This document shows, piece after piece, positions 5,052 to 36,304 of a stretch of DNA of 64,000 nucleotides. The stretch comes from Candidatus Terasakiella magnetica (GTDB lineage Bacteria > Pseudomonadota > Alphaproteobacteria > Rhodospirillales > Terasakiellaceae). Positions within the stretch are counted from its first letter, which is position 1. Each line of letters starts with the position of its first letter. Under the pieces are notes generated by a model. It was not told the origin of the DNA. It saw only the letters and a list, made by a program, of their open reading frames with translations, and made no database searches. The DNA is taken from the NCBI RefSeq assembly GCF_900093605.1, contig NZ_FLYE01000046.1, positions 124,001 to 188,000 on the forward strand, read 5' to 3'. The position numbers and the translations under genes are program-made.

Positions 5052-5966
5052 GTGTATCAGGACCTATACAAAGAAGCGCTTCGCATTAGGCTTGTCGAAG
5101 AGAAAATTATCGAGCTTTACCCTTCTGACAAAATTCAAAGCCCGGTTCATATGTCTATTGGTCAAGAGGCTGTGGCAGTGGGCTGTTGTGCCGCCCTTGA
5201 AAAAGACGATCTGGTTTTTGCCACTTATCGCAGCCATGCGTTTTATTTGGCAAAAGGTGGCGATATGCCCAAAATGTTTGCTGAACTTTACGGGCGCATT
5301 GGCGGTGGTTGTAAAGGCAAGGCCGGATCCATGCATTTAGCCGCACCTGAAGCCGGCTTTATGGGTGCCTCTGCCGTTGTTGCAAGCTCAATCCCCCATG
5401 CAGCGGGCGCAGCACTGGCTGCCAAGCGCCGTGACACGGGCCAAGTTATTATGTCTGTCTTTGGGGATGGGGCAACAGAAGAAGGTGTCTGTCACGAGAC
5501 GCTAAACTTTACAGCACTACATAGCCTGCCTGTTGTTTTTATCTGCGAAGATAATGGCCTTGCGGTCCATTCTCACATTAAGGATCGCCAAGCCTATAAG
5601 CTGGAAGAACTTGCGGCTAATTACGGTATTGAAACGGTCGTGATTGAAAACGGTATGGATTTTGTCGGTGTTTATGAAACCGTTAAAAAACATGTTGATG
5701 ATGTGCGTGAAAATGCAAAGCCCGTCTTTATCGTGATCAAGACCTATCGCTATAAAGAGCATGTGGGTCCTGGTGATGATTTTAATGCAGGCTATCGCGA
5801 TGTTTGTGACTATGAAAAATGGTCAGCCCTTGACCCGTTAGTAACAGACAAAGAAACCTATATCGCCCTAAAACCTGAAGTGGATGAAGAAGTTGATGCT
5901 GCTGTACAGTTTGCTGAAAATAGCCCATGGCCGGGCCGTGATGAACTTCTAACGGATGTTTGGTAA
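5052..5966 (+). CDS. TPP-dependent dehydrogenase/acyltransferase, E1 alpha subunit
   Basis: This is a homologue of the alpha subunit of pyruvate/acetoin dehydrogenase E1. It has the phosphate-loop region YRSHAFYLAKG, the family block GKGGSMH-like GCKGKAGSMHL, and the thiamine-diphosphate motif GDGATEEG followed about 27 residues later by EDN (usually ENN). At 304 residues it is a little short of the 320-360 typical of the family. It starts at GTG 5052 behind AGGTAGGG. The beta subunit follows after 15 bases. No lipoyl E2 or E3 gene is near, so ordinary oxidative decarboxylation is unlikely. In a sugar operon a two-carbon acyl transfer to a nucleotide ketosugar is a reasonable inference, as proposed for the AviB1/AviB2 pair of avilamycin. 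Confidence 0.85.
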   Translation: MYQDLYKEALRIRLVEEKIIELYPSDKIQSPVHMSIGQEAVAVGCCAALEKDDLVFATYRSHAFYLAKGGDMPKMFAELYGRIGGGCKGKAGSMHLAAPEAGFMGASAVVASSIPHAAGAALAAKRRDTGQVIMSVFGDGATEEGVCHETLNFTALHSLPVVFICEDNGLAVHSHIKDRQAYKLEELAANYGIETVVIENGMDFVGVYETVKKHVDDVRENAKPVFIVIKTYRYKEHVGPGDDFNAGYRDVCDYEKWSALDPLVTDKETYIALKPEVDEEVDAAVQFAENSPWPGRDELLTDVW

Positions 5967-5981
5967 GGATTAAAAAAAACA

Positions 5982-7046
5982 ATGAGAACAGTTTCTTATC
6001 AGGATGCGCTTTTAGAAGCGATGAACCAAGGTTTAGATGAAAACCCCAATGCCTTTATCATGGGCCAAGGTGCAGATGATCATAAAGGTCTGTTTGGTTC
6101 CACCACAGGTATGGTTGATAAATTTGGCCCAGAGCGTGTGTTTGACACACCTTTGGCCGAAGAAGGCATTACGGGGATTGCGGTTGGCGCTGCCATGAAC
6201 GGCATGTATCCCATTACAACCCATATCCGGTCTGACTTTATGTTATTGGCGACCAACCAGATTATTAATATGGCGGCAAAATATCGCTATATGTTTGGCG
6301 GCACGACCGAGGTGCCTATGTTGATCCGCGCCATTGTCGGGCGCAGTTGGGGCCAAGGCGCACAGCATTCACAAAGCCTGCAATCGCTTTTTGCCCATAT
6401 CCCGGGTTTACATGTGATTATGCCATCAAGTTCTGAGACCATCTTGGATACTTATGCCTATGTGATGAAAAATGTAAAAGGTCCGGTGATCAGTTTTGAA
6501 CACCGCCTGCTGTATACGTTGAATTTTGAAGTTGATGATCAGGCGGTTGCCAATCAGGCTGACCCGCTTCGTGCACGCTTGTTGCGCAAAGGTAAGGATA
6601 TCACCATCGTTTCAACTTCCATCATGACATTGGAAGCCTCACGGGCGGCAAAATATCTGGCTGAAGAAGCAGGTATTGAGTGCGAGTTGATTGATCTTCA
6701 TTGCTTATCAAAAATCGATATTGATTTGATTTGTGAAAGTGTGAAAAAGACCGGGCGCTTGTTAATTGCAGATACCAGCTGGGCACCTTTTGGGGTTTGT
6801 GCAGAGATTTGTCGCCTTGTGTGTGAGCGCGATCCCTCATTGTTAAAACAAAAAGTGGAAAGCCTTTCTATGGCGCCTGCGCCTTGCCCAACAGCTAAGA
6901 CACTTGAAGATATGTATTACCCGCATTTGGGTGATTTCTGTGATACGGTTTCACGTTTGGTGAAAGGTTCACAAGATCATGGGGTGAAATTGCCGGATGA
7001 GAAATCTATGGCGGATGTGTACAAACGCTTCCGTGGACCATTTTAA
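5982..7046 (+). CDS. TPP-dependent dehydrogenase/acyltransferase, E1 beta subunit
   Basis: Residues 1-180 form the transketolase-like pyrimidine-binding domain with the catalytic glutamate region (PLAEEGITGIAVGAA) that activates thiamine diphosphate in the alpha subunit. The HSQSLQSLFAHIPGL segment is typical of E1 beta. Residues about 200-325 form the transketolase C-terminal domain (GKDITIVSTSIMTLEA). At 354 residues it is full length. It sits 15 bases behind the alpha gene and must form an alpha2beta2 enzyme with it. Everything around it is nucleotide-sugar chemistry, so the acyl acceptor is probably a sugar rather than lipoamide. Confidence 0.88.
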   Translation: MRTVSYQDALLEAMNQGLDENPNAFIMGQGADDHKGLFGSTTGMVDKFGPERVFDTPLAEEGITGIAVGAAMNGMYPITTHIRSDFMLLATNQIINMAAKYRYMFGGTTEVPMLIRAIVGRSWGQGAQHSQSLQSLFAHIPGLHVIMPSSSETILDTYAYVMKNVKGPVISFEHRLLYTLNFEVDDQAVANQADPLRARLLRKGKDITIVSTSIMTLEASRAAKYLAEEAGIECELIDLHCLSKIDIDLICESVKKTGRLLIADTSWAPFGVCAEICRLVCERDPSLLKQKVESLSMAPAPCPTAKTLEDMYYPHLGDFCDTVSRLVKGSQDHGVKLPDEKSMADVYKRFRGPF

Positions 7047-7065
7047 GAAATAAGGATTAAACAAA

Positions 7066-8037
7066 ATGCGCGTCTTAATCACAGGAATTACCGGAATGGT
7101 CGGCAGCCACTTGGCTGAATATATTCTTGAAAACCATCCTGAGGCAGAAGTCTATGGCATGGTGCGCTGGCGTAGTCCCTTGGATAATATCCAAGGTATT
7201 CTTGAGAAAGTGACTTTGGTAAATGGCGATTTGCGCGACCTAAATTCTCTTATCAAGATTATGACGGATATTAAGCCGGACCGTATTTTCCATTTAGCGG
7301 CACAATCTTATGTCACCGTGAGTTTTGATCAGCCCGCTGACACATTGGAAACCAACGTGATTGGCACGACAAACCTGATGGATGCGGTGCGTTGGGCAAA
7401 GATTGATCCGCGCATTCATATTTGTTCTTCTTCAGAAGTTTATGGTCAGGTTAAAGAAGACGAAGTGCCGATTACTGAACATAACCCCCTGCGCCCGGCA
7501 AGCCCTTATGCGGTTTCCAAAGTGGGGGAGGATATGATCTCGCTACAATATTTCCTGTCTTATGGCATCAAAACCATCCGCACGCGCATGTTTACCCATA
7601 CAGGGCCGCGCCGTGGTGATGTATTTGCTGAAAGTACATTTGCCAAACAGGTTGCAGAAATTGAAGCGGGTCTTAAGCCAAACCCTGTAAAAGTGGGCAA
7701 TCTTGATAGTGTGCGCACCATTGCAGATGTGCGCGATGCGGTGCGTGCTTATTGGTTGTTGTTAGAACATGGCGAGCCCGGTGAGGTTTATAACATCGGT
7801 GGTGAAGAGACTATGACCGTAGGCGATATTTTAGATATCTATAAGGACATGGCAACTTGTGAGATCAAACATGAAGTTGATCCCGCCCGCCTGCGTCCAT
7901 CTGATGTGACCTTACAAATTCCTGATATTTCAAAATTCCAAGAAGTTACGGGCTGGAAAGCAAAAATCCCACCGCGTAAAACCTTTGAAGATTTGTTGAA
8001 CTATCACCGCCATCTGATCAAAAAACAGAGTGTGTAA
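7066..8037 (+). CDS. GDP-mannose/GDP-heptose 4,6-dehydratase family enzyme
   Basis: This extended SDR has the nucleotide loop TGITGMVGSHL, the catalytic set CSSSEVYG (with the Glu used by 4,6-dehydratases) and YAVSK, and the GDP-binding end RLRPSDV followed by the KxxxVTGW-like FQEVTGWKA. These fit GDP-mannose 4,6-dehydratase or its GDP-heptose relatives (DmhA/WcbK). The next gene is a heptose-type sugar kinase and a matching guanylyltransferase-like gene lies at 21038, so GDP-D-glycero-D-manno-heptose is as likely a substrate as GDP-mannose. The product would be a 4-keto-6-deoxy sugar. It ends directly at the next start codon. Confidence 0.8.
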   Translation: MRVLITGITGMVGSHLAEYILENHPEAEVYGMVRWRSPLDNIQGILEKVTLVNGDLRDLNSLIKIMTDIKPDRIFHLAAQSYVTVSFDQPADTLETNVIGTTNLMDAVRWAKIDPRIHICSSSEVYGQVKEDEVPITEHNPLRPASPYAVSKVGEDMISLQYFLSYGIKTIRTRMFTHTGPRRGDVFAESTFAKQVAEIEAGLKPNPVKVGNLDSVRTIADVRDAVRAYWLLLEHGEPGEVYNIGGEETMTVGDILDIYKDMATCEIKHEVDPARLRPSDVTLQIPDISKFQEVTGWKAKIPPRKTFEDLLNYHRHLIKKQSV

Positions 8038-9102
8038 ATGAGCCTTGTCATCACCAGAACACCGTTTCGTGTTTCCTTCTTTGGCGGCGGAACAGATTAC
8101 CCTGAATGGTACTTAAAAGAAGGTGGCTCGGTTCTTTCAGCCGCCATTGATAAATATTGCTATATCACGGCGCGTTATCGCCCGCCGTTTTTCCCAACTG
8201 CACACCGTGTGGTTTGGGCTCATATCGAAAGTGTTCAAAGCATTTCTGAAATCCTTCATCCTGCGGTGCGTGAAGGATTGCGCATGCTTGATTTTGATGA
8301 TAGCCACGGTATTGAAATTCTCCACCAAGGTGATCTTCCTGCCCGCACGGGCATGGGCTCAAGCTCAGCCTTTGCTGTTGGCTTGATCTTGGCGCTTAAA
8401 ATGATGCGTGGTCAGGCAGTGAGCCAAGAAGACCTTTATTTAAAAGCGATTGAGCTGGAACAAGATTGGTTAAAAGACTCCGTTGGCTCTCAAGACCAAG
8501 TGGCCTGTGCCATGGGTGGGGTCAATGTCATTGACTTTAATACCGATGGGGCCATTAACGTAAAACCCATCCAAGCCTCAAAACAGCGCTTAAATGGGCT
8601 GAATAGCCGTTTGATGATGTTTTATACGGGCACAAGTCGCCTATCTTCAGAAGTGGCACGCGATGTGATTTCAAATATTGCGGATCGTTCAACGGTGTTG
8701 CGTGAAATGAAAGCCATGGTGCCCGTTGCGCAGGCCATTTTGGAAGAAACGGCAAGTGATCTGGATGATTTTGGGCGCATGATGAATGAGACATGGCAGC
8801 TTAAGAAAAGCCTGAGTGGGAAAATCAGCAACAGCAATATTGATGATATTTACGAAGCGTCGCAAAAAGCAGGTGCCTTGGGCGGTAAGCTTTTGGGGGC
8901 GGGGCATTCCGGTTTCATGATGCTTTATGTGCCGCTTGATAAACGCGAAGCGGTGCGCCAAGCGTTACATGAATTGATGGAAGTGCCGTTTAACTTTGAA
9001 ATGAAGGGCAGCCGGGTCTTAAACGATCATGGCTGGATGTCGGAGTTAAGCGCGAGCATTATCAAACGAAAAATCGGGCAGGTGAGTAATGGCGTCCAAT
9101 AA
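8038..9102 (+). CDS. GHMP kinase, heptose-7-phosphate kinase (HddA) type
   Basis: The protein opens with ITRTPFRVSFFGGGTDYP, the hallmark of the HddA/fucokinase branch of GHMP kinases. It has the ATP-binding motif GMGSSSA near residue 106, GSQDQ further on, and the third motif GAGHSGF near residue 290. HddA phosphorylates D-glycero-D-manno-heptose 7-phosphate at C1 for GDP-heptose synthesis. It starts immediately after the preceding stop (TAA-ATG) and overlaps the next gene by 14 bases, so the unit is tightly coupled. A hexose or 7-carbon analogue as substrate cannot be excluded. Confidence 0.8.
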   Translation: MSLVITRTPFRVSFFGGGTDYPEWYLKEGGSVLSAAIDKYCYITARYRPPFFPTAHRVVWAHIESVQSISEILHPAVREGLRMLDFDDSHGIEILHQGDLPARTGMGSSSAFAVGLILALKMMRGQAVSQEDLYLKAIELEQDWLKDSVGSQDQVACAMGGVNVIDFNTDGAINVKPIQASKQRLNGLNSRLMMFYTGTSRLSSEVARDVISNIADRSTVLREMKAMVPVAQAILEETASDLDDFGRMMNETWQLKKSLSGKISNSNIDDIYEASQKAGALGGKLLGAGHSGFMMLYVPLDKREAVRQALHELMEVPFNFEMKGSRVLNDHGWMSELSASIIKRKIGQVSNGVQ

Positions 9103-9928
9103 TGAACTGGCTCTTATCGCCGCAAAGATGCGCCTGCGTGCCTTAAAAGCTGCTCTTAAAGCCAAAAAAGGCCATGTACCACCTGCTTTTTCCTGTATGG
9201 ATGTGGTGGTCTCTCTTTTTGAAGATGGCTTGCTCAATGTTAATCCTGATGAGCCCAAAGCGCCTACGCGAGATCGCTTTATCCTCTCAAAAGGTCATGC
9301 GTGCCTTGCCCTTTATACCATCATGTCCCATCGTGGTTTCTTTGGGGATGAGGAACTAGACGATTTTGCCGGACATGGCTCATTCTTGCCCGGTCACCCC
9401 GATCTGGAAATCCCCGGGGTAGAGGCTATTTCAGGCTCGCTTGGACATGGTCTGGGCTTGGGCTCAGGCATGGCTTTGGCAGCGCGTATGAATGGTGAAG
9501 ACTGGAAGACGACTGTTATTCTTGGTGATGGCGAATGTCAGGAAGGCTCGATTTGGGAAGCAGCTATGTTTGCAGGCCAGCAGAAACTTTCAAACCTCAC
9601 AGCGATTGTAGATTACAACAAGCTGGGGGCGACGAATTTTACTGACAATGTGATTTCACTGGAACCTTTTGCTGATCGCTGGACAAGCTTTGGCTGGAAC
9701 TGTGTTGAGATTGACGGGCATGATTATAACGCGATCCGCAAGGCTTACACGCAAGGGCGAGATGAGCGCCCACGTGCCATTATCGCCCATACGACCAAGG
9801 GCAAGGGTGTAGACTTTATGGAAAACTCACCAAAATGGCACCATGCGTTGCCACAGGGTGAACAGGTTGAAGAGGCACTTGCACAGCTTCAAGGTCAAAT
9901 TGATGCGTTATCGGATATGAGTGAGTAG
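9089..9928 (+). CDS. Transketolase, N-terminal (TPP-binding) subunit
   Basis: The 279-residue protein covers only the first domain of transketolase. It has SKGHACLALYT with the substrate-phase His, SGSLGHGLGLGSGMA, and the TPP motif GDGECQEG with the pairing Asn about 30 residues on (VDYNKLG). The C-terminal subunit follows after 11 bases. Such split transketolases occur in archaea and in sugar clusters. They may transfer a ketol unit between dedicated sugars rather than serve the pentose pathway. The start overlaps the kinase gene by 14 bases and has AGGTGAG as ribosome site. Confidence 0.87.
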   Translation: MASNNELALIAAKMRLRALKAALKAKKGHVPPAFSCMDVVVSLFEDGLLNVNPDEPKAPTRDRFILSKGHACLALYTIMSHRGFFGDEELDDFAGHGSFLPGHPDLEIPGVEAISGSLGHGLGLGSGMALAARMNGEDWKTTVILGDGECQEGSIWEAAMFAGQQKLSNLTAIVDYNKLGATNFTDNVISLEPFADRWTSFGWNCVEIDGHDYNAIRKAYTQGRDERPRAIIAHTTKGKGVDFMENSPKWHHALPQGEQVEEALAQLQGQIDALSDMSE

Positions 9929-9939
9929 GGGAAGATAAA

Positions 9940-10839
9940 ATGGATTTTAGAGACGCCCTATTTAACGAAATTCACGCGCTCATGCGCCGTGATAAAGATG
10001 TGGTTGTTATCACCAATGATATGGGGGCTTTTGGCTTTGATCTAATCGCCAAAGAATTCCCCGAGCGTGCCGTAAACCTTGGTATTGCTGAGCAGAATTT
10101 AATCAGTGTGTCAGCAGGTCTTGCTTTTGCAGGTAAAAAGGTTTTTGCCTTTGGTATTGCCTCTCACGTGGCTTTTCGCTGTTTTGAACAGATTAAGCTT
10201 GATATGTGCGTGGGCAACCTGCCAATCGTTTTAATCGGTATGGGACCGGGGCTGACATACGGTAATGACGGGCCAACCCACCATGCAACTGAAGATGTGG
10301 GCGCACTGGGGTGTATCCCCAATCTGACCATTTATAACCCATGTGATGTGGTGGCGGTTGGTAAGTCGGTTCAGCTGGCTTTTGAAACGGGTGGTCCCTG
10401 TTTTATCCGCCTTGATAAAGAAAAGAATGAACCTGTCTGGCAAGAAGATGAAGCTGCTTTTAAAGCAGGTGTGAAGCTGGTGAAAGAAGGCTCTGAGACC
10501 TTGATTTTATCAACGGGCATTCCAACCTATCGCGCGCTTCATGCTGCTGAGGGAGCAAAGGCGGCTGTGGCTGATGTGCTTCAATTAAAACCAGCGCCTA
10601 AAGAGGCTCTGCTTGACCTGATAAAAGGGTTTGAGCGTATCATCGTTGTGGATGAACATGTCAAAACAGGCAGCCTTTATAGCAGCGTCTGTGAAGTCAT
10701 TGCTGAAAACGCTTTGGTGAAAAAGCTTGAAGCCGTCACTTTACCTGATGAATTTCTGCTGGGTTCAGCCAGTCGTGATTGGGCGCATGAAAAATTCGGT
10801 TTCAGTGTTGAGGCACTGAAGCAACGTATTGGAGAATAA
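9940..10839 (+). CDS. Transketolase, C-terminal subunit
   Basis: The protein carries the pyrimidine-binding domain with the catalytic Glu (RAVNLGIAEQNLISVSAGL) and the C-terminal transketolase domain (ETLILSTGIPTYRAL, then IIVVDEHVKTGSLYSSV). The GNDGPTHHATEDVGAL segment is typical of transketolase/DXPS proteins. At 299 residues it completes the 279-residue subunit encoded just upstream. The operon therefore has two separate two-subunit TPP enzymes, which argues for two distinct carbon-chain steps in one glycan pathway. Confidence 0.87.
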   Translation: MDFRDALFNEIHALMRRDKDVVVITNDMGAFGFDLIAKEFPERAVNLGIAEQNLISVSAGLAFAGKKVFAFGIASHVAFRCFEQIKLDMCVGNLPIVLIGMGPGLTYGNDGPTHHATEDVGALGCIPNLTIYNPCDVVAVGKSVQLAFETGGPCFIRLDKEKNEPVWQEDEAAFKAGVKLVKEGSETLILSTGIPTYRALHAAEGAKAAVADVLQLKPAPKEALLDLIKGFERIIVVDEHVKTGSLYSSVCEVIAENALVKKLEAVTLPDEFLLGSASRDWAHEKFGFSVEALKQRIGE

Positions 10840-10842: not shown

Positions 10843-11781
10843 ATGTCTGCTGAATTTGACCAAAAACTGTCCTTGGATGATTTTGCCCAGCAGTTTGGCA
10901 TGGATGTCTCTGATATTTCTGAGGAAATGAAAGAGTTTATTGCCTCAAAAGATTTCTCCTATCGTTTTCTTGATGGTAAAGAACGCGATAAAACAGCCAT
11001 TGAAATTTTGGAACGCCGCGCGTGGGAAAAATCCATTGCGGGTGAGGGTAAAGTTGATCGCTGGAATAAAGGCTGGGGGGAAAACCTGCAGGCTTTTTTA
11101 GACAGTAAATGTGATCTGGAAACCCTGATCCCGAAATATATCCGCCCCGGTCAGCCCGTGCGTTTATTTAAGCATTTTGCCAAAGTTGCCGATGATGAGT
11201 TTGAGCTCAATTGGTATCGGATTTTCCGCGACAGCTTCTTTAGAAAATATCTGTCCGGTTTTAATGAAATTTACGAATTTGGCTCAGGTTCAGGCCATAA
11301 TGTGGCTGTTTTGGCAAAGATGTATCCTGAAAGTAAGATCAATGCCTTTGATTGGGCAGAGCCCTCTGTGGATATTGTTAATCATATGCGCGATGAGCTG
11401 GGCCTAAATGTCTGTGGGCGTCACTTTGATTTCTTTAATCCAGATACATCAGTGAAGATCGCGCCGAATTCTGCGGTTTTGACCATGGGGGCGCTGGAAC
11501 AGACAGGTGATAAGTTCCATACCTTCCTTGAATATATTCTCGATCAAAAACCAACCATGTGTTTTCATGAAGAGCCGATTGTAGAAGTGCATGATGATGA
11601 TAATATGGTGGATTACACCTCCTTAAAAACCATGGAACGGCGCAATTTCCTCAATGGTTTGGTCAAGACCCTTCGCGAATATGAAGAAAAAGGCTGGATT
11701 GAGATCAAGAAGGTTCATCGTTCCCAGTTTGGTAGCTTGATGTTTGAAAGCTACGCACAGGTTATCTGGCAACCCAAATAA
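10843..11781 (+). CDS. Class I SAM-dependent methyltransferase
   Basis: A Rossmann methyltransferase motif I is visible near residue 145 (YEFGSGSGHNVAVLA), followed by motif II with an acidic ribose-binding position (NAFDWAEPS). The N-terminal 130 residues are helical and have no motif I recognise. In the middle of the sugar operon, three bases after the transketolase C-subunit, it most likely O- or N-methylates a sugar intermediate or the finished glycan. The substrate cannot be read from the sequence. Confidence 0.7.
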   Translation: MSAEFDQKLSLDDFAQQFGMDVSDISEEMKEFIASKDFSYRFLDGKERDKTAIEILERRAWEKSIAGEGKVDRWNKGWGENLQAFLDSKCDLETLIPKYIRPGQPVRLFKHFAKVADDEFELNWYRIFRDSFFRKYLSGFNEIYEFGSGSGHNVAVLAKMYPESKINAFDWAEPSVDIVNHMRDELGLNVCGRHFDFFNPDTSVKIAPNSAVLTMGALEQTGDKFHTFLEYILDQKPTMCFHEEPIVEVHDDDNMVDYTSLKTMERRNFLNGLVKTLREYEEKGWIEIKKVHRSQFGSLMFESYAQVIWQPK

Positions 11782-11804: not shown

Positions 11805-12587
11805 ATGGATTTAGGGCTTAAAGGTAAAAAGGCACTCATCACAGGGGGGAGCCACGGGATCGGTCTGGCAACGGCCCTTCGTTTGGCAAGTGAGGGCTGT
11901 GACGTTGCCATTTGTTCGCGCACCCAAGAACGCCTTGATGAAGCCAGTGCATTGTTAAAACCACGGGGCACAAAGGTTCTCGCCTTTAGGTGTGATGTCT
12001 TGGAAAATGATGAGATTGATGAAGGCATTGCCCTGATTAAAAAAGAATGGGGCAGTCTTGATATTATCGTTAATAACGTTGGTGGTGGCGGGCGTTGGGG
12101 AAAACCCAATATTGTGGAAAGCCCCGATATCGTTTGGTATGAGGTCATGCAGAAAAATGCCATGGCAGCAGCGCGTTTTACCCGTGCATTTCTTGATGAT
12201 ATGAAAGCCCAAAAATGGGGCCGTGTGGTCACGGTTTCTTCCATTGTGGGTAAAGAAGGCGGCGGGCGTCCTTGGTTTAATATGGCAAAGGCGGCTGAGA
12301 TTAGTTTTTCAAAAACCATGGCCTTGATGCCTGAATACGGCCAAGCAGGCATTACCTTCAATACGGTTTGCCCCGGTGCGATCATGATCCCGGGGACAGG
12401 CTGGGAAGATGAGCAGAAAAAAGACCCTGAGGCCTTTGCCAAAATGACGGCAGAGAAAAACCCCATGGGGCGTTTGGGCAAACCCGAAGAAGCAGGCGAT
12501 GTGATCGCCTTTGTGTGTTCTGAGCGTGCAAGTTATATGTCGGGTGCTTTGATTACGGTGGATGGCTGTGAAACAAAATCATTCTGA
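11805..12587 (+). CDS. SDR oxidoreductase with Phe in place of the catalytic Tyr
   Basis: This is a classical short-chain dehydrogenase of 260 residues. It has the cofactor loop GGSHGIGLA, the NNVG motif, the catalytic Ser at 145/146 (TVSSIVG) and the family ending GALITVDGC. The active-site motif reads F158-N-M-A-K162 instead of YxxxK, so the general acid tyrosine is missing. The enzyme may bind NAD(P) without normal carbonyl reduction, or use a different proton donor. It overlaps the next gene by 26 bases, which couples their translation. Confidence 0.8.
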   Translation: MDLGLKGKKALITGGSHGIGLATALRLASEGCDVAICSRTQERLDEASALLKPRGTKVLAFRCDVLENDEIDEGIALIKKEWGSLDIIVNNVGGGGRWGKPNIVESPDIVWYEVMQKNAMAAARFTRAFLDDMKAQKWGRVVTVSSIVGKEGGGRPWFNMAKAAEISFSKTMALMPEYGQAGITFNTVCPGAIMIPGTGWEDEQKKDPEAFAKMTAEKNPMGRLGKPEEAGDVIAFVCSERASYMSGALITVDGCETKSF

Positions 12588-13545
12588 TCACTGGCCTAAA
12601 GGCCGTTATGTTTTATTTGGTGCCAGCGGCCTTGCCGGCACTCATGCGCTTAATCTGTTAAAAGACCAAGATGGTATTTCTGTTCTTGCGGTTTCAAACT
12701 CGCGCCTACCCAGTGTGACAGGGGAAAATATCGAGGTTGCGCAAGCGGATTTAACCGATAGTGAGAAATGCCTAGAGCTTTCAAAAGAGGCGGATTATGT
12801 GCTGGCTTTTGCAGGTGTGGTGGCAAGTGCGCCTGTGTTAGCTGCTGATCCCATTGCGCCTATTCAGACAAATTTAAAAGTGGCGGTTAATTGTATTGAA
12901 GCCGCATGGCGCAATGGGGTGAAACATTGTGTCTGGCTCTCAAGTACAACGGGCTATCCCGCCCTTGAAGGCGATATTATTGAAGAACAGATGTTTGATG
13001 ATAACCCACCGGGCAATTGGTTTGGCCTTGGCTGGATGACCCGCTATGTGGAAAAATTTGCCAAACATATTAGTGAGAATGTGCCAAACCCCATCCCTGT
13101 GACCTGCCTGCGCCCCAGTTTGATCTATGGGGAAAATGACCATTTTGATGATGAGAACGCCCATTTCCTACCCGCCCTTATTCGCCGTGTGATCTTGCGT
13201 GAAAAGCCCATTGAAGTATGGGGGACAGGCGAGCAGGAACGCGATGTTATCCATGCAGAAGACGTGGCGCGCGCAGCCTTTTTAGCGCTCAATCGTGCGC
13301 AAGGTTTTCGTGATTACAATATAGCGTTTGGAAAAAGCTATAACGTTAACCATATGCTAAGCTTGATATGTTCCAATGATAACTTCGATGATGCCGAGAT
13401 TGTTCATCTGCTGGATAAACCCCAGAGTTTGGCCAAACGGGCTTTTTCAATAGAAAAGGCGCAAAAGGAACTGGGGTTTGAAGCAAAAGTGTCGCTTAAT
13501 GAAGGGCTAAAAAGAACAATCGACTGGTATCGAGAGACTATCTAA
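12562..13545 (+). CDS. NAD-dependent epimerase/dehydratase-like protein, degenerate active site
   Basis: An extended SDR with nucleotide loop FGASGLAGTHA and C-terminal features of sugar epimerases (CLRPSLIYG, then EVWGTGEQERDVIHAEDVARA). Aligned with GDP-fucose synthase-type enzymes (Y-x-x-x-K-R-M), the active site reads L156-G-W-M-T160-R, so both Tyr and Lys are replaced. It is paralogous to the two epimerase-like genes at 14900 and 15906, which share the layout but differ in substitutions. Start ATG 12562 has GGTGG upstream and lies inside the SDR gene. It may be a binding or non-redox enzyme. Confidence 0.75.
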   Translation: MAVKQNHSDHWPKGRYVLFGASGLAGTHALNLLKDQDGISVLAVSNSRLPSVTGENIEVAQADLTDSEKCLELSKEADYVLAFAGVVASAPVLAADPIAPIQTNLKVAVNCIEAAWRNGVKHCVWLSSTTGYPALEGDIIEEQMFDDNPPGNWFGLGWMTRYVEKFAKHISENVPNPIPVTCLRPSLIYGENDHFDDENAHFLPALIRRVILREKPIEVWGTGEQERDVIHAEDVARAAFLALNRAQGFRDYNIAFGKSYNVNHMLSLICSNDNFDDAEIVHLLDKPQSLAKRAFSIEKAQKELGFEAKVSLNEGLKRTIDWYRETI

Positions 13546-13575
13546 AAGGGCAGAAGCCCTAGAAAGTGAGTGATT

Positions 13576-14868
13576 ATGACTCTTCAAGTCGGTGTCGTTG
13601 TGCCTACATGGCATTACTGGATTGATCCCATTAAGCTACAGCCGTTATGGGAACTCTATTATGCCACTTTGATTGAAGATCATATTGACGATGTTTCCGT
13701 GCAAATTATTGATCGACGCGGCAATAAAGACCAGCCTTATCCAGAATGCGATGTATATTTCTATTGGGTGATGAAATCGGCTGATGCGTTTGAGATTTAT
13801 GACATCATCAAGGATTTGCGCCAACTCAATCCAAAATCCATCCACCTTGGTGGTGGTAACCATGTGGACCATCTGACAGACCAAGCCGCAGAGCATTTTG
13901 ATGCCTGCCTTCTTGGCACGGCTGAAGGGCTGATCGTTGAGGCCTTTAAAGATTTGCGCACAGGCAAGCTTGAAAAAGTCTATAAGGCGAATGGGCCGTT
14001 TAAATTTTGTGAATACGGTCATAGCCGTCGCGAGTTTTTGCCGCCTGAGCGCGTGGTTAATGACAAGCATTTCTCCCAATATGGCGGCGTACCGGGAACG
14101 GGTGTTTATTTCTCGCGCGGTTGTAGCTTTAAATGTAGTTTTTGCGTTTATAATAATCCGGGCAAATTTGAATATCGTGAAGCCAGCCAAATCACAGCTG
14201 AGATTGAATATCTGAAAAAGAATTTTGGCGTTAAAGGGGTCAACCTTCGCGATGAAGTTTGCATTCCGGTGAACCGGAAACTTGCACAAAATTATCTGGA
14301 AGCCATTGGTAAAGGTGATGTGATTTGGCGCGGTCAGACGGTTCCCTTTGGTGATGAAGATATGGTCAAACTGGCGGCTGAATCTGGTTGTCAGGAAGTC
14401 GCCTTGGGTATGGAAAGTGCGGATTCAGATGAGGTGCTGATCCTTGCCAACAAGCCGTCTAAAAGCATTGATCGCAATAAAAAATATGTTGAGATGCTGA
14501 AGAAATACGGCATTAAGGTGAAAGTTTGCCTCATCTTTGGTCTACCCGGTGAGACTGAAAATGTGGTGGAGCGCACCATCAAGTTTATTGAAGAGATTGA
14601 GCCTGATTATGTGGCGCTTTCCGGTTTTGATCCGGTGCCCGGTTCTCCTTTTTATAACGAGCCTGAAAAATACGGCTTGAAGTTTATTGATAAAGACCTC
14701 TCAAAACATGCCCATCTTGTGTATCGCTTTGGTGATGAAGAAGATGTCGGCTTGCCGTTTGAATATGACGAAAAAGCCCCATGGGGGACACCGCTCACCC
14801 GGGATCAAATCGTCAATAATATCAAAACTCTCCAAGGCTGGCTGCGCGAGCGCGGCATGAGCTATTAA
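13576..14868 (+). CDS. B12-binding-type radical SAM enzyme
   Basis: The first 130 residues have the shape of the cobalamin-binding domain found in class B radical SAM enzymes (alternating beta/alpha ending LGGGNHVDHL and LLGTAEG), without a DxHxxG motif, which many of these enzymes lack. The radical SAM cluster motif is Cys183-xxx-Cys187-xx-Cys190 (SRGCSFKCSFCVY). A later IFGLPGET segment is typical of the family. Possible reactions are C-methylation at an unactivated carbon, or another radical rearrangement of the sugar. I prefer ATG 13576 to the in-frame GTG at 13570 because of the spacing to AAGTGAG. Confidence 0.8.
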   Translation: MTLQVGVVVPTWHYWIDPIKLQPLWELYYATLIEDHIDDVSVQIIDRRGNKDQPYPECDVYFYWVMKSADAFEIYDIIKDLRQLNPKSIHLGGGNHVDHLTDQAAEHFDACLLGTAEGLIVEAFKDLRTGKLEKVYKANGPFKFCEYGHSRREFLPPERVVNDKHFSQYGGVPGTGVYFSRGCSFKCSFCVYNNPGKFEYREASQITAEIEYLKKNFGVKGVNLRDEVCIPVNRKLAQNYLEAIGKGDVIWRGQTVPFGDEDMVKLAAESGCQEVALGMESADSDEVLILANKPSKSIDRNKKYVEMLKKYGIKVKVCLIFGLPGETENVVERTIKFIEEIEPDYVALSGFDPVPGSPFYNEPEKYGLKFIDKDLSKHAHLVYRFGDEEDVGLPFEYDEKAPWGTPLTRDQIVNNIKTLQGWLRERGMSY

Positions 14869-14899: not shown

Positions 14900-15892
14900 G
14901 TGATTGAAGATAAAGTCCTCAAAGCAATGGATGGTGCCAACTGTGTGGTCACAGGTGGGACAGGGATGATCGGGGCGGAAGTTGTCCGTTTGTTATGTGA
15001 TGCAGGCGCTAATGTAAAAAGTGCCTCGCTTGATGATATCAGTGCTGATGCGCGTGCAGAAACGGTAAAAGCCGATTTGACAGATATCTCAACCTGTATG
15101 GACCTGTGTCAGGACATGGATTACGTTTTTCATGTGGCAGGTATTAAGGGCTCAATTGAAGTGACTAAGTCCAAACCGGCAAGCTTTTTTACCAATTTGT
15201 TGATGATGAATACCAACATGTTGGAAGCAGCGCGTCGCGTTGGTGCAAAAAAGACGGTGTATACAAGCTCTATTGGGGCTTATTCCTCTGCTGAAGTGTT
15301 TGTAGAAGATGATGATGATCCGTCAAAACCTCCGATGGATATGTTTCCCGGCTGGGCAAAACGTATGGCGGAAATGCAGGTAGAAGCCTATAAAATCCAG
15401 TATGATCTAGATAATTTTGCCATTGTGCGCCCGTGTAATGTTTATGGGCCCGGTGATAATTTTGATCCGGCAAATGCCATGGTGATCCCGTCTTTAATGG
15501 CGCGCATTGATGGTGGGGAAAACCCGCTTTTGGTTTGGGGGGATGGCTCAGCCGTTCGTGATTTTGCCTATACAACAGATTGTGCAGAAGGCGTTATTCA
15601 GGCCCTTTATCATGGGACACGCGGCTCATACGTGAATTTGGGTTCCGGTGTGGGCGTGACCATTCGTGAGCTTGTGGAAACATTGGCAAAAGTAATTGAT
15701 TTCGAATTTGAATTTGATACATCCAAACCAGCGGGTTTCCCGCGCCGTGTGATGGATTTAACCCGTGCGCGTGACTGGATTAATTATGATCCGAACACTT
15801 CTCTAGAAGAAGGTCTGCGCAACACATGGGAATGGTATTTAAAGAACAAGAATGCCAGCGATAAACGCCATAATTACTTCACACAGGACTAA
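14900..15892 (+). CDS. GDP-fucose synthase-like SDR lacking the catalytic Tyr
   Basis: An extended SDR with TGGTGMIGAEV at residues 18-28, TSSIGAY in place of the usual SS-V/C block, and a segment FPGWAKRMAE that aligns with the YxxxK-R-M block of GDP-L-fucose synthases. Here Tyr is replaced by Pro150 while Lys154 remains. The following NVYGPGDNFDP is typical of fucose-synthase-like enzymes. It starts with GTG 14900 behind AAGGAA. The three neighbouring paralogues each changed the Tyr differently (Leu, Pro, Val), which suggests relaxed need for proton donation at this position. Confidence 0.78.
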   Translation: MIEDKVLKAMDGANCVVTGGTGMIGAEVVRLLCDAGANVKSASLDDISADARAETVKADLTDISTCMDLCQDMDYVFHVAGIKGSIEVTKSKPASFFTNLLMMNTNMLEAARRVGAKKTVYTSSIGAYSSAEVFVEDDDDPSKPPMDMFPGWAKRMAEMQVEAYKIQYDLDNFAIVRPCNVYGPGDNFDPANAMVIPSLMARIDGGENPLLVWGDGSAVRDFAYTTDCAEGVIQALYHGTRGSYVNLGSGVGVTIRELVETLAKVIDFEFEFDTSKPAGFPRRVMDLTRARDWINYDPNTSLEEGLRNTWEWYLKNKNASDKRHNYFTQD

Positions 15893-15905
15893 GGGGGAAA
15901 GACAG

Positions 15906-16883
15906 ATGACTGTAGATTTAAAAGGGGCCAATGTCCTTGTAACGGGCGGTGCTGGTTTTTTAGCCACCAATTATATTTTGAATCTGGTTGAAAAAGGCGC
16001 AAATGTGCGCGCAACCCTTCATAATAAAGAGCCCAAGACGATTGTTGAGGGTGTGGAATATATCAAAACGGACCTGCGCGATCTGGCAAATTGTGAAGCT
16101 GCGGTTAAGGGTATGGATTATGTCTTTCATTGCGCAGCCAATACCCAAGGCGCAGGCGTTATTGCCACAACCCCGATGGTACATGTGACGCCCAATGTGG
16201 TGATGAACACCCATTTGATGGAAGCGGCCTACGTTGAAGGCATTAAAAAGTTTGTCTTTATTGGCTCTGGCGCTTCTTATCCTGATACGGGTGATCGCCC
16301 CGTGACAGAACCAGAAATGCTGGATGAACATCCCTCAACTGTATATCACGCGGTTGCATGGATGAAGCGTTATGCTGAAATCCTGTGTGAGACCTACGCA
16401 ACGCATCTTAAAAAGCCAATGCCATGCTTGGTCATTCGCCCTTCAAATGTGTATGGCCCATGGGATAAGTATGATCCAAAATCCTCTCACGTAACAGCAG
16501 CCATGATCCGCAAAGTGTTTGAGCGTCAAACACCGATTGAGGTGTGGGGCACAGGTGAAGATATCCGCGATCTGATCTATATTGATGACTTCATGGAAGG
16601 CTCATTTAAGGCGTTTGATTGTGAAGATGAGTATCTGGCGGTGAATGTCTGTTCTGGTTATGGGGTAACGGTAAAAGATATCCTTAATACGGCGATTGAG
16701 GCGGAAAGCTTTGATAATAACGATGTGCGCTTTGACCCATCCAAGCCTTCCACCGTGCCGATCCGTTTGATCTCGAATGAATATGCCAAAGAGAAAATCA
16801 ACTTTGAAGCCAAGACGAGCCTGCTTGATGGGATCAAAAAGACTTGTGACTGGCTACGTGCAAACCCCAAAGCATTAGGTTAA
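15906..16883 (+). CDS. NAD-dependent epimerase/dehydratase-like protein, Val at the Tyr position
   Basis: An extended SDR with TGGAGFLATNY at its N-terminus (the third Gly of the loop is Ala), VFIGSGASYP, RPSNVYGPWDKYDP and EVWGTGEDIRDLIYIDDF. The expected YxxxK reads V150-A-W-M-K154, so Lys is kept and Tyr is lost, although a Tyr sits three residues earlier. I start at ATG 15906 behind AAGGGGGAAAG; a longer reading frame from 15852 would overlap the previous gene without a ribosome site. It is the third of three tandem-type paralogues in this operon. Confidence 0.78.
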   Translation: MTVDLKGANVLVTGGAGFLATNYILNLVEKGANVRATLHNKEPKTIVEGVEYIKTDLRDLANCEAAVKGMDYVFHCAANTQGAGVIATTPMVHVTPNVVMNTHLMEAAYVEGIKKFVFIGSGASYPDTGDRPVTEPEMLDEHPSTVYHAVAWMKRYAEILCETYATHLKKPMPCLVIRPSNVYGPWDKYDPKSSHVTAAMIRKVFERQTPIEVWGTGEDIRDLIYIDDFMEGSFKAFDCEDEYLAVNVCSGYGVTVKDILNTAIEAESFDNNDVRFDPSKPSTVPIRLISNEYAKEKINFEAKTSLLDGIKKTCDWLRANPKALG

Positions 16884-16898: not shown

Positions 16899-18449
16899 AT
16901 GCAGATTGTGTTTCCAGACAGTATTGAAGGTATTCCCGCTTTTTATCAAAGCTGTCAGGGTGATGAAGAGAAGATCAAGTTTATTGTCAAAGGACTGATT
17001 GAGCATGATCTTTTAGATTATGCAGAAAGCTTTACCCGCTTGGCATGTTCTGAATTTCATACTTCTTTTTGGCCTTTTATCAATCTGCTTTGTATTTTGA
17101 CCAAAGCTGGCAAGAAAGTTGAGTCTATCAGCGTTGCAGCGAACATCATGAAAACCAGCCGTATGTCTGGTGATGTGATGTGTGATCAGGTGGTGTTTGA
17201 AATCTATTCAATCATGCGTGATTTCATGCAGGCCAATCAAAAAGATGTGGTGCAGGCCTTGATGGAGTTGGCTGCAAGATTGCGCCCCTATGGCAAGCGA
17301 CTGATCAGTTCTTCAGGTGAGCTTGCCCCATTAAGCCAAGATGAATTTAAAGCTAAAATTACCAAGGCTATTGAAGAGTTTAAGCAGGGTAAAACGGCAC
17401 TGCCTTTTGTATTGGATCATTTTAACAAATGTGAGCTTAAGGATATTTCGGCCTTTAAGGGGAAAAAGGTTTTAGGTGTTTTTCGCCAACGGGCCTATTC
17501 CTCAAAAGAAGCACGCGATGTGGAGTTTTTGGAGTTTTACCCCAAAACTGCTTTGCCATTGGGGCTGGATTATCGCACTTTTTATCATGATGCTTTTGTT
17601 CATACCAAACATTACAGTGCTGAAGACTATATAGAGCAGATTGATCGTTTAGAAAAAGAGGTGCGCGAGTGGCGCCCTGATTACATCTATATTGATAACC
17701 TGCTGTCGCATCATGAGCCGGAGATTACCGAGCGTGTACAGGCGCGCTTGGCGGCGTGGAAGGCAGAATACGGTTTTAAAGTCATTGGTTTCTTTGCAGA
17801 TGCATGGGGTAATAAGCAGAAAAAAGCCATTGGTCAAACCATGGAATTGGCAGATGCTTTTCATCACAGCCATTCAACCTATATCGGCACATTACCTGAA
17901 GATGTTGAAAAGAAAACGCTTTGTTTTCCATGCCCTTATCCACGCTCGATCTTTGATTGTCCAGATGTCGAAAAAGATATTTTTACCCTTTTTCATGGAA
18001 CGTTAAATCCCATGCGGGTGCCGTGGGCGACAAAAATTCTTGAGAGTGACCTCAATGTGAAAATGCATTTTTCCAACCATCATGTAAAAGGCGAAGTCGC
18101 CACCATGGATGCATATGCGCGTGCTTTATCACGTGCAAAAGTTTCCTTGATCCTGACGGCGCGCACAACCATGCAAACCGCCATGACGGGGACGGTTTGG
18201 GAAGCCATTTTGACCAATAGTATGATCTTGGAAGAAGAGAGTGTGGAAGCACCGCATTATCTGGTGCCTTTTGTGCATTACGTTCCATTTTGTAGCTATG
18301 CGCAATTAAAGCACTATATAAAATATTTAGAGCAGGACGAAGAACTGGTATCCTTAATTCGCCAGAATGCTTCAGACTTTTATGATCAATATTATTCTCC
18401 AGATCATTTCTGGAGCGGTATTCTCAGTTTAGCAGATGCAAACCATTAA
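16899..18449 (+). CDS. CgeB-like glycosyltransferase with extra N-terminal domain
   Basis: The C-terminal 300 residues resemble the CgeB glycosyltransferases: GKKVLGVFRQRA, then a Rossmann half with YIYIDNLLSHHEPE, a hinge (FTLFHGTLNPMRVPW), and a final nucleotide-sugar half with TGTVWEAILTNSMILEE and HYIKYL-type helices. The first 160 residues are helical with no motif I know. It lies in the sugar operon after the last epimerase-like gene and before the SPASM radical SAM gene, so it probably transfers the operon's sugar. The acceptor, protein or growing glycan, is unknown. Confidence 0.6.
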   Translation: MQIVFPDSIEGIPAFYQSCQGDEEKIKFIVKGLIEHDLLDYAESFTRLACSEFHTSFWPFINLLCILTKAGKKVESISVAANIMKTSRMSGDVMCDQVVFEIYSIMRDFMQANQKDVVQALMELAARLRPYGKRLISSSGELAPLSQDEFKAKITKAIEEFKQGKTALPFVLDHFNKCELKDISAFKGKKVLGVFRQRAYSSKEARDVEFLEFYPKTALPLGLDYRTFYHDAFVHTKHYSAEDYIEQIDRLEKEVREWRPDYIYIDNLLSHHEPEITERVQARLAAWKAEYGFKVIGFFADAWGNKQKKAIGQTMELADAFHHSHSTYIGTLPEDVEKKTLCFPCPYPRSIFDCPDVEKDIFTLFHGTLNPMRVPWATKILESDLNVKMHFSNHHVKGEVATMDAYARALSRAKVSLILTARTTMQTAMTGTVWEAILTNSMILEEESVEAPHYLVPFVHYVPFCSYAQLKHYIKYLEQDEELVSLIRQNASDFYDQYYSPDHFWSGILSLADANH

Positions 18450-18472: not shown

Positions 18473-19630
18473 ATGGGTGACGTGAAAAATAGCAATATTG
18501 AAAAAGCATTGTCGAAAGTTCCGGCAAAGCTGTTGCGCAATTGGACGCTGGAGCTGACAAGCCGCTGTAACCTGCGTTGTACGTATTGCAGTGTGCCCCA
18601 TGCTGAGGAATATGGCATGGTGGATATGTCTGCTGAGCGCATTGAAAAGCTTAAAAGCCTGATGAAAAACAGTGGGGTTGATTTTATTAGCCTGTCTGGA
18701 CGTGGTGAGTTGACCTATATTGATGGTTGGGAAGAAATTGTCACACCGTTTTTTGAAATGGGTTTGCCTACCCATACGGTGACGAATTTCCAAAAACCAC
18801 TGACATGGGAACAAGCCCGACTGATGGCGTGTTTTTCCATGTTGACCTTCAGTATTGATAATGTTGATCGCGAGATGACCAGAAAGGTCCGCAAAGGGGG
18901 CGACCTGCGCAATGTGATCTATAACGTCAATATGGTTAAAGCTGCCGGCCTTGCCATGGGGCGCAAGCAGATGAATATGCATGTGATTGCTGTTGTGACC
19001 AAATCAAGTCTGGGTGGTTTTAAAGACCTTGCGGCCTTGATGGTTTCTTTGGGTGTGCAGCACCTTAAGTTACAGGATTTGGTGATGGATTATTCTGATC
19101 GTGTTGATACGGTCGATATCAGTCATATTTCTGAGCTCCCTGACGATGAGCTGGTAGATGCAGCACAGGACCTTGTTGATGCGCGCCAGATTTGTCTGGA
19201 AAATGGGGTTGGTTTTTATATGCACCCAAGTCTGGAAACAATCATCAATAAAGCATTGGGCCATAGCCAGAAAGATGAAATCGTTGCTGATCGTGTGACC
19301 ACAACCAATGTGGGTGACCATATGCGCCATGGTTGTCGCCTAGAAGAGGGTGAGACACGTGATTGTATCCAGCCATGGCAGTTGGCGATCTTATTAGCCG
19401 ATGGTGGTGTGGAGCCTTGTACGGGCTCTTACGGCCCTATTGGAAATTATGACTTTGCTGAAAAACCGGATGAGTTCTTTAACTCACCCGATATGGTCGA
19501 ACTTCGTAAATCTTTGCTCACAGGTAATCTGGGGCAAGCCTGTAAGTTCTGCGGGACGGCAAAAGCCATTAAAGTTGAGGACTTCCAAAAGAAAGTCCAA
19601 AACTATATTCGTGAGCGTCTAACGACTTAA
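18473..19630 (+). CDS. Radical SAM/SPASM enzyme
   Basis: The N-terminal barrel has Cys32-xxx-Cys36-xx-Cys39 (SRCNLRCTYCSVPH), the site of the SAM-binding iron-sulfur cluster. The C-terminus has the cysteine arrangement of a SPASM domain binding extra clusters: Cys in GCRLEEG, CIQPWQL, VEPCTGS and CKFCGTA. SPASM enzymes in glycan and antibiotic clusters act as radical dehydrogenases or epimerases, or modify peptides. As last gene of the operon it is a candidate for epimerisation or oxidation of the sugar. Its stop overlaps the convergent RmlC-like gene by four bases. Confidence 0.8.
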   Translation: MGDVKNSNIEKALSKVPAKLLRNWTLELTSRCNLRCTYCSVPHAEEYGMVDMSAERIEKLKSLMKNSGVDFISLSGRGELTYIDGWEEIVTPFFEMGLPTHTVTNFQKPLTWEQARLMACFSMLTFSIDNVDREMTRKVRKGGDLRNVIYNVNMVKAAGLAMGRKQMNMHVIAVVTKSSLGGFKDLAALMVSLGVQHLKLQDLVMDYSDRVDTVDISHISELPDDELVDAAQDLVDARQICLENGVGFYMHPSLETIINKALGHSQKDEIVADRVTTTNVGDHMRHGCRLEEGETRDCIQPWQLAILLADGGVEPCTGSYGPIGNYDFAEKPDEFFNSPDMVELRKSLLTGNLGQACKFCGTAKAIKVEDFQKKVQNYIRERLTT

Positions 19631-20145
19631 GTTAGATACTGCGCATCACTATCACGCGGTGAGACAATCGGGTTATTAATGGGCCAGTAAAGGTCTAGTT
19701 TCGGGTCATTCCACAGCAAGGTGAATTGGCCTGCGCGGTTATATTCGCTTGTCTGTTTATAATGAAAAATGGCTTCATCTGTCAGGACCACATGCCCATT
19801 GCCATGCTTGGGCGGGATGAGAAGCTGGTGACGGTTTTTTGCCGATAAAGTATGGCCTTCCCACTGCCCAAATTGTGGGGAATCTTTATCCCAGTTGATG
19901 ACGAGAATATAGAATTTTCCATGCAGGCAGCTGATCAGCTTCCATGTCTCTGCATCGCCATGGATGCCGCGCAGGACATGCTGGGAGGAAACTGAGATAT
20001 CATCTTGAATGAAAGGCTGGTCAATGCCAGCTTCATGATAGAGGCGCTCGTTATAGGTTTCGATATATTCGCCACGGAAATCTTCAAAGATGGTTGGCGG
20101 GGTAATTTTCAACACGCCATCGAGTTTGGTTTCTTCAACTTTCAT
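19627..20145 (-). CDS. RmlC-like dTDP-sugar 3,5-epimerase family protein
   Basis: A cupin-fold protein of 172 residues with the RmlC signatures: FRGEYIETYN near residue 23, the QDDISVSSQHVLRGIHGD block carrying the catalytic His, and LIPPKHGNGHVVL corresponding to the family PxGxAHGF segment. It would invert sugar stereocentres next to a keto group. RmlA, RmlB and RmlD are not nearby, so the substrate may be a keto sugar made by the operon at 5052 rather than dTDP-4-keto-rhamnose. It is the last gene of the minus-strand maf operon. Confidence 0.75.
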   Translation of the reverse strand: MKVEETKLDGVLKITPPTIFEDFRGEYIETYNERLYHEAGIDQPFIQDDISVSSQHVLRGIHGDAETWKLISCLHGKFYILVINWDKDSPQFGQWEGHTLSAKNRHQLLIPPKHGNGHVVLTDEAIFHYKQTSEYNRAGQFTLLWNDPKLDLYWPINNPIVSPRDSDAQYLT

Positions 20146-34637: not shown

Positions 34638-34643
34638 GGCTTT

Positions 34644-35693: not shown

Positions 35694-35872
35694 AGTGCAG
35701 ACTCCTTGATATGCGCATTTTGTCCAATTTTATATTACTATTGGGGATAACAGTTATTTTTTCATTAATAGAACAGCTTTTGTAGAAAAAAACGTCAAGT
35801 TATAAAAAGGGGCTAAAAATAGTGATGATTATGAAAATATTAGCTTTTCTTCCGGTGCCAAAACAATATTGA

Positions 35873-35901: not shown

Positions 35902-35937
35902 CGTAGTAGCGCTTATTGATGAAGGAGGAAATGTACC

Positions 35938-36282: not shown

Positions 36283-36304
36283 GTTTTCTTAAATTAAGAA
36301 TTCT

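Follow-up and report, generated by a model that had tools for sequence, protein, structure and literature searches.

A probable GDP-heptose gene cassette with two split thiamine diphosphate enzymes in a flagellar region of Candidatus Terasakiella magnetica

Gene content of the cassette

The window analysed here, a stretch of 64,000 nucleotides from contig NZ_FLYE01000046.1 of Candidatus Terasakiella magnetica (positions 124,001 to 188,000), contains a gene cassette for two enzymes of the thiamine diphosphate (ThDP) type, each split over two chains. An E1 alpha/beta-like pair (5052-7046) is followed by a dehydratase, a heptose-type kinase and the two halves of a transketolase (TK; 9089-10839). 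This arrangement, with dehydratase and kinase enclosed by the two ThDP pairs, had been described in a first-pass annotation, and both content and coordinates are borne out by Pfam and by a check of the open reading frames (ORFs) of the window, in which all six frames from E1a to TKC were confirmed open:

5052-5966, plus strand: E1a, E1 alpha-like subunit of a putative stand-alone ThDP carboligase (Pfam E1_dh, 1.1e-54)
5982-7046, plus strand: E1b, E1 beta-like subunit of 354 amino acids with a C-terminal extension ending in FRGPF (Pfam Transket_pyr and Transketolase_C)
7066-8037, plus strand: GDP-heptose 4,6-dehydratase-like protein of the DmhA type (Pfam GDP_Man_Dehyd, 1.5e-79)
8038-9102, plus strand: GHMP kinase of the HddA (heptose-phosphate kinase) type (Pfam GHMP kinase N and C domains)
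9089-9928, plus strand: TKN, N-terminal half of a split TK with the ThDP-binding domain (Transketolase_N, 1e-41; best PDB match the split TK 6yak)
9940-10839, plus strand: TKC, C-terminal half of a split TK with pyrimidine and C-terminal domains (Transket_pyr and Transketolase_C; best PDB match the split TK 6yaj)

These genes are the first of 14, all on the plus strand between 5052 and 19630. Due to gaps between neighbours of only -41 to +31 bases, a single operon is likely, which extends from E1a through the second radical S-adenosylmethionine (SAM) gene, and the recurrence of the arrangement in other genomes argues that it is more than chance. A promoter scan gave 20 hits compared with a shuffle mean of 25.4, and 32 terminator-like elements compared with 16.6; these counts are reported without interpretation.

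The E1-like pair and its relatives

The absence of E2 and E3 genes in the vicinity of the E1 pair, which had been pointed out before, extends to the whole contig (C45), where no E2 catalytic, biotin/lipoyl or E3 dimerisation domain was detected. A genome-wide search revealed only two E2 catalytic domains, on contigs C1 and C33, and reading of the ORFs by eye places these genes within operons resembling those of pyruvate dehydrogenase (PDH) and 2-oxoglutarate dehydrogenase. E3 dimerisation domains are located on C33, C1, C47, C12 and C8, and biotin/lipoyl domains on C33, C1, C22 and C44. For comparison, 80 named loci with related E1 pairs were used, comprising 17 close and 63 further relatives and representing the best 80 of at least 586 relatives. 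To these were added 13 out of 20 regions from a relatives' set; L021 (no E1b match), L036 (own PDH) and L038 (doubtful) were omitted, as were L034, L037, L039 and L040, which fall outside the clade. An E2 match was found near none of the 93 clade loci, which average about 15 kb, and near all 20 control loci, which are PDH E1 loci of 20 kb each, taken from congeneric genomes or from others in the order. By this comparison, the prediction that the E1 pair works without E2 and E3 is well supported.

E1a shares 35-49% identity with the 13 clade members of the relatives' set and 39% with the PDH E1 alpha of its own genome. In the alignment, E1a displays EHVGP at the position of the GHSMSD-like loop of PDH. 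This loop (GHS[MR][SA]D) is present in all 20 PDH controls and in none of the 83 clade-locus E1a sequences, only 54 of which carry the substitute motif [EY]H[VCAI]GP. Three features of E1b are absent from all 20 controls: the C-terminal tail FxGP[FY], found in 79 of the 83 copies from the 80 named loci, the motif HxRx[DE][FL] (82 of 83; HxRxDF in the clade of the window) and a WGQG-type motif, WGQGxxH (79 of 83). Since the peptide patterns used to select the relatives included WGQG, the last count is partly due to selection, whereas the count for the tail is independent. In the relatives' set, composed of rows from inside and outside the clade, the tail is present in 13 of 21 E1b rows. Positions E60 and H129 of E1b, which we take to have catalytic roles, are invariant in the clade alignment. 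An AlphaFold model of E1b adopts the fold of PDH E1 beta; the final residues have a pLDDT of only about 42, so that the placement of the tail can not be read from the model.

In a tree of 75 chosen E1b rows, the window sequence groups with 17 loci (53-66% identity) into an 18-row clade apart from PDH, with an SH-aLRT support of 100. Judged from sequence, the E1 pair is a kind of its own and not PDH-like. The 17 close relatives are labelled as Pseudomonadota, Thermodesulfobacteriota, Nitrospirota, Lentisphaerota, Kiritimatiellota, Myxococcota and, in one case, Saganbacteria, giving at least six labelled phyla, of which single labels may be wrong as most of these relatives are metagenome assemblies. 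Each of five congeneric genomes contains a single match, at PDH level (35-39%), which suggests acquisition by transfer.

Among the more distant relatives, two uncharacterised pairs on Streptomyces linear plasmids (L144 and L145) carry the tail, ending in FAGPY and FIGPY, along with the clade motifs. The surrounding clusters contain ketosynthase, carrier-protein or adenylating genes, and carboligation on non-sugar acceptors is possible there; for KA57-A, a lead for the Streptomyces cluster, the literature passages hold no statement on ThDP. A sugar cluster of Solidesulfovibrio magneticus encodes a related pair that lacks the tail. Four annotated plasmid records name such proteins only as 'thiamine-dependent dehydrogenase E1 subunit alpha' and 'transketolase C-terminal domain-containing protein'. 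In the sugar cluster of one relative (L002/L021), the E1a frame is interrupted by an inner TAG stop, which could mean that the copy is broken or that the assembly is in error.

GDP-heptose genes and the split transketolase

The best PDB match of the dehydratase is 7us5, a GDP-D-glycero-D-manno-heptose 4,6-dehydratase (285 bits), compared with 154 bits for the GDP-mannose 4,6-dehydratase 1db3, and a GDP-mannose pathway was rejected on this basis. Moreover, the stretch HICSSSEVYG is identical in the window dehydratase and 7us5, and most of the 14 close relatives with the gene retain it. By best match and residues, the dehydratase is of the GDP-heptose type. The kinase matches 4usm/4usk, listed as 'sugar kinase' (124 bits), followed by the heptose kinase 3k85 (120 bits), and its best NCBIfam model is HddA (NF049969; 117 bits, cut-off 600). 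For the nucleotidyltransferase, the HddC model NF049965 scores best (128 bits, cut-off 300), closely followed by a mannose-1-phosphate guanylyltransferase model (126 bits). The window is devoid of a GmhA-like match (E 0.07 at best); a single one is found in the genome, on C12 (200 bits, cut-off 209), where by eye it adjoins an HldE-like gene. Taken as predictions, these assignments make GDP-heptose (C7) the probable precursor of the sugar.

At least one match to four GDP-heptose-type queries occurs in 63 of the 80 clade loci, including 16 of the 17 close relatives, and in none of the 20 controls (Fisher 3e-11, with the reservation that the loci are not independent and that weak matches may be generic family matches). 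Stricter counts give an HddA-like kinase with at least 44% identity in 40 of 80 loci and the dehydratase with at least 45% in 27 of 80, among them 14 of the 17 closest.

The remaining cassette genes, on which the comparison between loci draws, are the following:

10843-11781, plus strand: MT1, class I SAM methyltransferase-like protein (structural matches only; model pLDDT 92)
11805-12587, plus strand: classical short-chain dehydrogenase/reductase (SDR) with Phe at the catalytic Tyr position, FNMAK
12562-13545, plus strand: EPI1, extended SDR (GDP-fucose-synthase model best, below cut-off)
13570-14868, plus strand: radical SAM enzyme (B12-binding match sub-threshold)
14900-15892, plus strand: EPI2, extended SDR (GDP-fucose-synthase model best, below cut-off)
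15852-16883, plus strand: EPI3, extended SDR (GDP-fucose-synthase model best, below cut-off)
16899-18449, plus strand: possible glycosyltransferase (Glyco_trans_1_2, 24.1 bits, cut-off 25)
18473-19630, plus strand: second radical SAM protein
19627-20145, minus strand: RmlC-like epimerase, possibly a GDP-4-keto-heptose 3,5-epimerase (PDB matches; TIGR01221 just below cut-off)
20164-21018, minus strand: MT2, second methyltransferase-like protein, weak (best matches 19-20 bits, below cut-offs)
21038-21763, minus strand: HddC-like nucleotidyltransferase (best NCBIfam model NF049965 HddC)

MT1 gave no match in Pfam and NCBIfam searches; its top Foldseek matches are mostly small-molecule methyltransferases, and a TM score of about 0.44 indicates that they cover only part of the fold. 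In EPI1 to EPI3, a plain YxxxK as in the dehydratase is not apparent, although the alignment is rough at that place.

Within the 17 close relatives, several of which are represented by short contigs, the dehydratase is found in 14, the kinase in 12, the nucleotidyltransferase in 11, EPI3 in 10, MT1 in 8, EPI2 in 7, the RmlC-like gene in 5 and the SDR in 3. The order EPI2-RmlC-EPI3 is present in four (L061, L068, L070 and L071) and differs from that of the window. Both ThDP pairs occur in five close relatives (L062, L064, L066, L068 and L070; in L066 only TKN, at a contig end), and TK matches in three of the 63 further clade loci (L088, L114 and L131). In L044 and L045, TK and GDP-heptose genes are combined in the absence of an E1 match. 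Three other close relatives, L073, L076 and L067 (E1a only), contain a second type of E1, and none of the 17 has both TK and second E1. Where the window displays TKN-TKC-MT1-SDR-EPI1-radical SAM, the second E1 pair of L076 is followed by SDR-EPI1-radical SAM; the second-type pair precedes MT1-SDR in L139 and, on the other strand, in L073, and L124 has the order E1-SDR-MT1. This shared downstream gene order, though based on small counts, suggests that the TK pair and the second-type E1 pair occupy the same slot.

The TK pair displays the split-transketolase architecture, with separate N (ThDP) and C (pyrimidine and C-terminal) chains. TKN belongs to a cassette clade (support 99/98) together with the loci of the five close relatives and L044, L045 and L041. 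TKN conserves the ThDP and His positions, and TKC keeps AEQN. At the positions of the phosphate-site residues of human TK, which we take to be Ser345, His416 and Arg474, the window TKC has Phe, Gly and Lys; the full-length TK of the same genome (C4, open frame of 686 amino acids) retains Ser, His and Arg. A second split-TK group (100/99; L042, L043, L047-L050, L052, L054, L055 and L088) has YAPLG[PA]TH where others have GEDGP[ST]H. By eye, several of its members adjoin HAD-like, RfaE-like and epimerase genes, and L043 adjoins a Maf-like gene.

Predicted pathway, alternatives and known systems

E1-type pairs of the class alpha-KADH2 add a pyruvate-derived acetyl group to C3 or C4 of keto-sugars (PMC12247030). 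The class includes enzymes for aldgamycin, kosinostatin, kibdelomycin and paulomycin (PMC12247030, PMC4425429). For KbDH, activity on ketones was demonstrated in vitro (PMC12247030), and inactivation of pau11 led to loss of the paulomycins, with the aldo-keto reductase (AKR) Pau7 acting as branch ketoreductase (PMC4425429, PMC4753412). E1 of E. coli PDH has been called a promising biocatalyst for carboligation (PMC7696235). For miharamycin and amipurimycin, transfer of a hydroxyacetyl unit by split-gene TKs has been proposed but not proven, and 13 further split-TK sequences, all from Streptomycetes and none tested, are listed in the same review (PMC12247030). The first-pass annotation had named AviB1/AviB2 as precedent; this pair fits as one of the alpha-KADH2 class, and for the split TK a separate precedent has been proposed in miharamycin and amipurimycin.

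Our preferred explanation, which we hold to be about as likely as not, is that GDP-heptose is converted by the cassette into a branched high-carbon sugar through two carboligations with two-carbon units. Heptose 7-phosphate would be supplied by the GmhA-like enzyme encoded elsewhere in the genome and activated by the HddA-like kinase and the HddC-like transferase to GDP-D-glycero-D-manno-heptose, from which the DmhA-like dehydratase would generate GDP-6-deoxy-4-keto-heptose, a keto-heptose that the RmlC-like enzyme could epimerise; homology suggests each of these steps. Given the absence of E2, carboligation would be the natural outcome for the E1 pair and the adjacent 4-keto GDP-heptose its natural acceptor: the pair is predicted to decarboxylate pyruvate and to add the acetyl carbanion to the sugar ketone, resulting in a tertiary alcohol that bears an acetyl branch. 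This step, including pyruvate as donor, GDP-keto-heptose as acceptor and the ring position, we infer from the clade, the gene context and the precedents in antibiotic clusters. The split TK might add a second two-carbon unit, hydroxyacetyl (a ketol), to the same or another keto-sugar intermediate, and SDRs, methyltransferases and radical SAM enzymes would complete the sugar. Comparison supports the role of the E1 pair well and that of the TK less so. Of the earlier suggestion of a sugar built in two ThDP steps, carboligation on a nucleotide sugar appears likely, with a precursor that now looks like GDP-heptose. A more specific version, which we regard as tentative and rather less probable than the general one, is a single doubly branched sugar of about 11 carbons with a heptose core, an acetyl branch from E1 and a hydroxyacetyl branch from the split TK, in which TK and second E1 are swappable modules of a phylum-crossing cassette that decorates the flagellum here.

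Several observations weigh against the branched-sugar reading. The second-best structure for the dehydratase is 2pk3, a GDP-4-keto-hexulose reductase (245 bits); assignment as a reductase is disfavoured by HICSSSEVYG and THxGPRRxDVFxES, which are common to the window protein and 7us5 and different in 2pk3. The HddA, HddC and gmd models all score below their curated cut-offs, and the top two PDB chains for the RmlC-like protein are dTDP-4-keto-rhamnose epimerases (121.7 bits), followed by three matches that include GDP-4-keto-heptose epimerases (120.3, 118.7 and 118.5 bits). Nine of the 17 close relatives, five of them covered by about 10 kb on both sides, show neither TK nor second E1 in the stretch covered, which argues that the TK step is not obligatory. 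The phosphate-site His is absent from 31 of 32 split TKC rows and its loss is not specific to the cassette; for this reason the altered residues fit, but do not prove, a non-phosphate acceptor. The SDR that could reduce the branch ketone has Phe for the catalytic Tyr in the window, as in L073, L124 and L139 (Tyr in L063 and L076), which weakens its role as a simple branch ketoreductase like Pau7. Finally, no obvious sugar genes are present in the clusters around the tail-bearing pairs L144 and L145 (for the second cluster, as judged by eye), so that acceptors need not be sugars, and non-sugar acceptors probably exist within the wider clade.

The last point leads to an alternative in which the ThDP enzymes use a non-sugar acceptor, such as an acyl thioester or an aldehyde, and the decoration is joined to the sugar later. 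Despite the Streptomyces griseofuscus plasmid, on which a clade E1 pair is found among condensation-domain, acyl-carrier and ketosynthase genes, we judge this improbable: that row (L144) lies outside the 18-row clade of the window, and GDP-heptose-type matches accompany nearly all close relatives, as described above. Similarly improbable is a reaction at an aldehyde end, by which the sugar chain would be lengthened and no branch formed at a ring ketone. The sequences do not fix the acceptor carbon, and ThDP enzymes presumably take aldehydes too, as one of them does (PMC12247030); however, the dehydratase predicts a 4-keto intermediate, and C3 or C4 is where the E1-type enzymes known to act on sugars introduce their branches (PMC12247030).

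Somewhat less remote, yet still unlikely, is a division of labour in which E1 alone introduces a branch and the TK pair builds only the C7 or C8 backbone, for example sedoheptulose 7-phosphate or an octulose phosphate, for the kinase. The position of TK next to heptose-type kinase and dehydratase in L044 and L045 and the intact ThDP and His positions of its N half would agree with such a role, but the genome already encodes a full-length TK and a GmhA-like protein, and the replaced phosphate-site residues of TKC speak against it. By far the least probable explanation is that the pair represents an ordinary 2-oxoacid dehydrogenase E1 that borrows the housekeeping E2 and E3. In its overall fold and its ThDP motifs the pair does agree with E1; nonetheless, a PDH-type E1 with borrowed E2 was rejected on the clade, motif and E2-neighbour tests, and the additional E1b tail is located at the end that we take to contact E2 in the complexes.

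The branched-sugar reading gains a possible destination from the position of the cassette between flagellar genes and near a Maf protein gene: by Pfam, the window is a flagellar region with FliK (77-1861), flagellin (26445-27641), FlbT and FlaF. From this position we infer that the cassette sugar may be attached to flagellin. However, PseB, PseC and PseI, all above curated cut-offs, are encoded in the same island (33909-38828 and 48786-49964) together with a cytidylyltransferase and a formyltransferase-like gene, so that Maf may instead serve pseudaminic acid; flagellin may then carry two unusual sugars. The first-pass annotation had proposed a search for the same gene pairs beside Maf in other genomes: the two pairs do recur in five close relatives, but among the 80 loci a Maf-like match was found only in L071 in the stretches covered. 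Further genes of the region include a tetratricopeptide repeat (TPR) protein with a short match to GT9, the heptosyltransferase family (27764-29245), as a candidate for transferring a heptose-derived sugar, and a protein with TPR and glycosyltransferase family 41 (GT41) domains (22404-24308). The product of 2098-2952 appears sulfotransferase-like by eye, with no match in Pfam and NCBIfam searches. On the Azospirillum lipoferum plasmid AZO_p6 (L171), a GT41 gene and annotated sulfotransferase genes are located near a clade E1 pair.

Both enzyme types belong to a class with precedent, and in the open-licence PMC literature no description of their combination in one heptose cassette was found. 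If the predictions hold, two-carbon branching by E1-type enzymes and split TKs, so far described mainly from actinomycete antibiotics (PMC12247030), would extend to GDP-heptose cassettes in at least six labelled phyla. The cassette offers a testable system for the unproven proposal of keto-sugar acceptors for split TKs, and the doubly branched sugar, if true, would make this the first split TK with demonstrated activity on a keto-sugar. For annotation, the FxGP[FY] tail, HxRxDF and WGQG separate such enzymes from PDH E1.

In contrast to E1 of the PDH and branched-chain 2-oxoacid dehydrogenase complexes, the window pair has neither a nearby E2 nor the GHS[MR][SA]D loop, and unlike canonical TK acting on sugar phosphates, the window TKC lacks the Ser/His/Arg phosphate site. 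The GDP-heptose pathway of Campylobacter jejuni, presumably the origin of the heptose-enzyme structures, is resembled in the dehydratase, which is closest to 7us5, and, more tentatively, in kinase, nucleotidyltransferase and epimerase, for which heptose models or structures are best or near-best matches; we know of no ThDP carboligases in that pathway. With YerE and ErwE, which act on Gram-negative surface glycans, the cassette shares, as a prediction, a ThDP-dependent carboligation that joins a 2-oxoacid-derived unit to a nucleotide keto-sugar (PMC12247030); these are single-chain, decarboxylase-type enzymes with the TPP_enzyme architecture, whereas those of the window are of the E1 and TK types. 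The split TKs of miharamycin and amipurimycin are listed from Streptomycetes only (PMC12247030), whereas the window TK is part of a GDP-heptose cassette spread over several phyla. A further known system close in kind is alpha-KADH2, including AviB1/AviB2, Pau11/Pau12 and KbDH, to which the window pair is likened by description and not by sequence, a further point against the branched-sugar reading. As in that class, an alpha/beta E1-like pair without E2 and E3 is located in a sugar cluster and accompanied by a keto-forming nucleotide-sugar dehydratase, and Pau12 (345 amino acids; PMC4425429) is close in length to the window E1b and its clade. Differences lie in the mostly Gram-negative or otherwise non-actinomycete hosts, in the use of GDP-heptose in place of TDP-hexose, in the flagellar position found here and in the TK or second E1 pair that stands alongside in part of the cassette loci.

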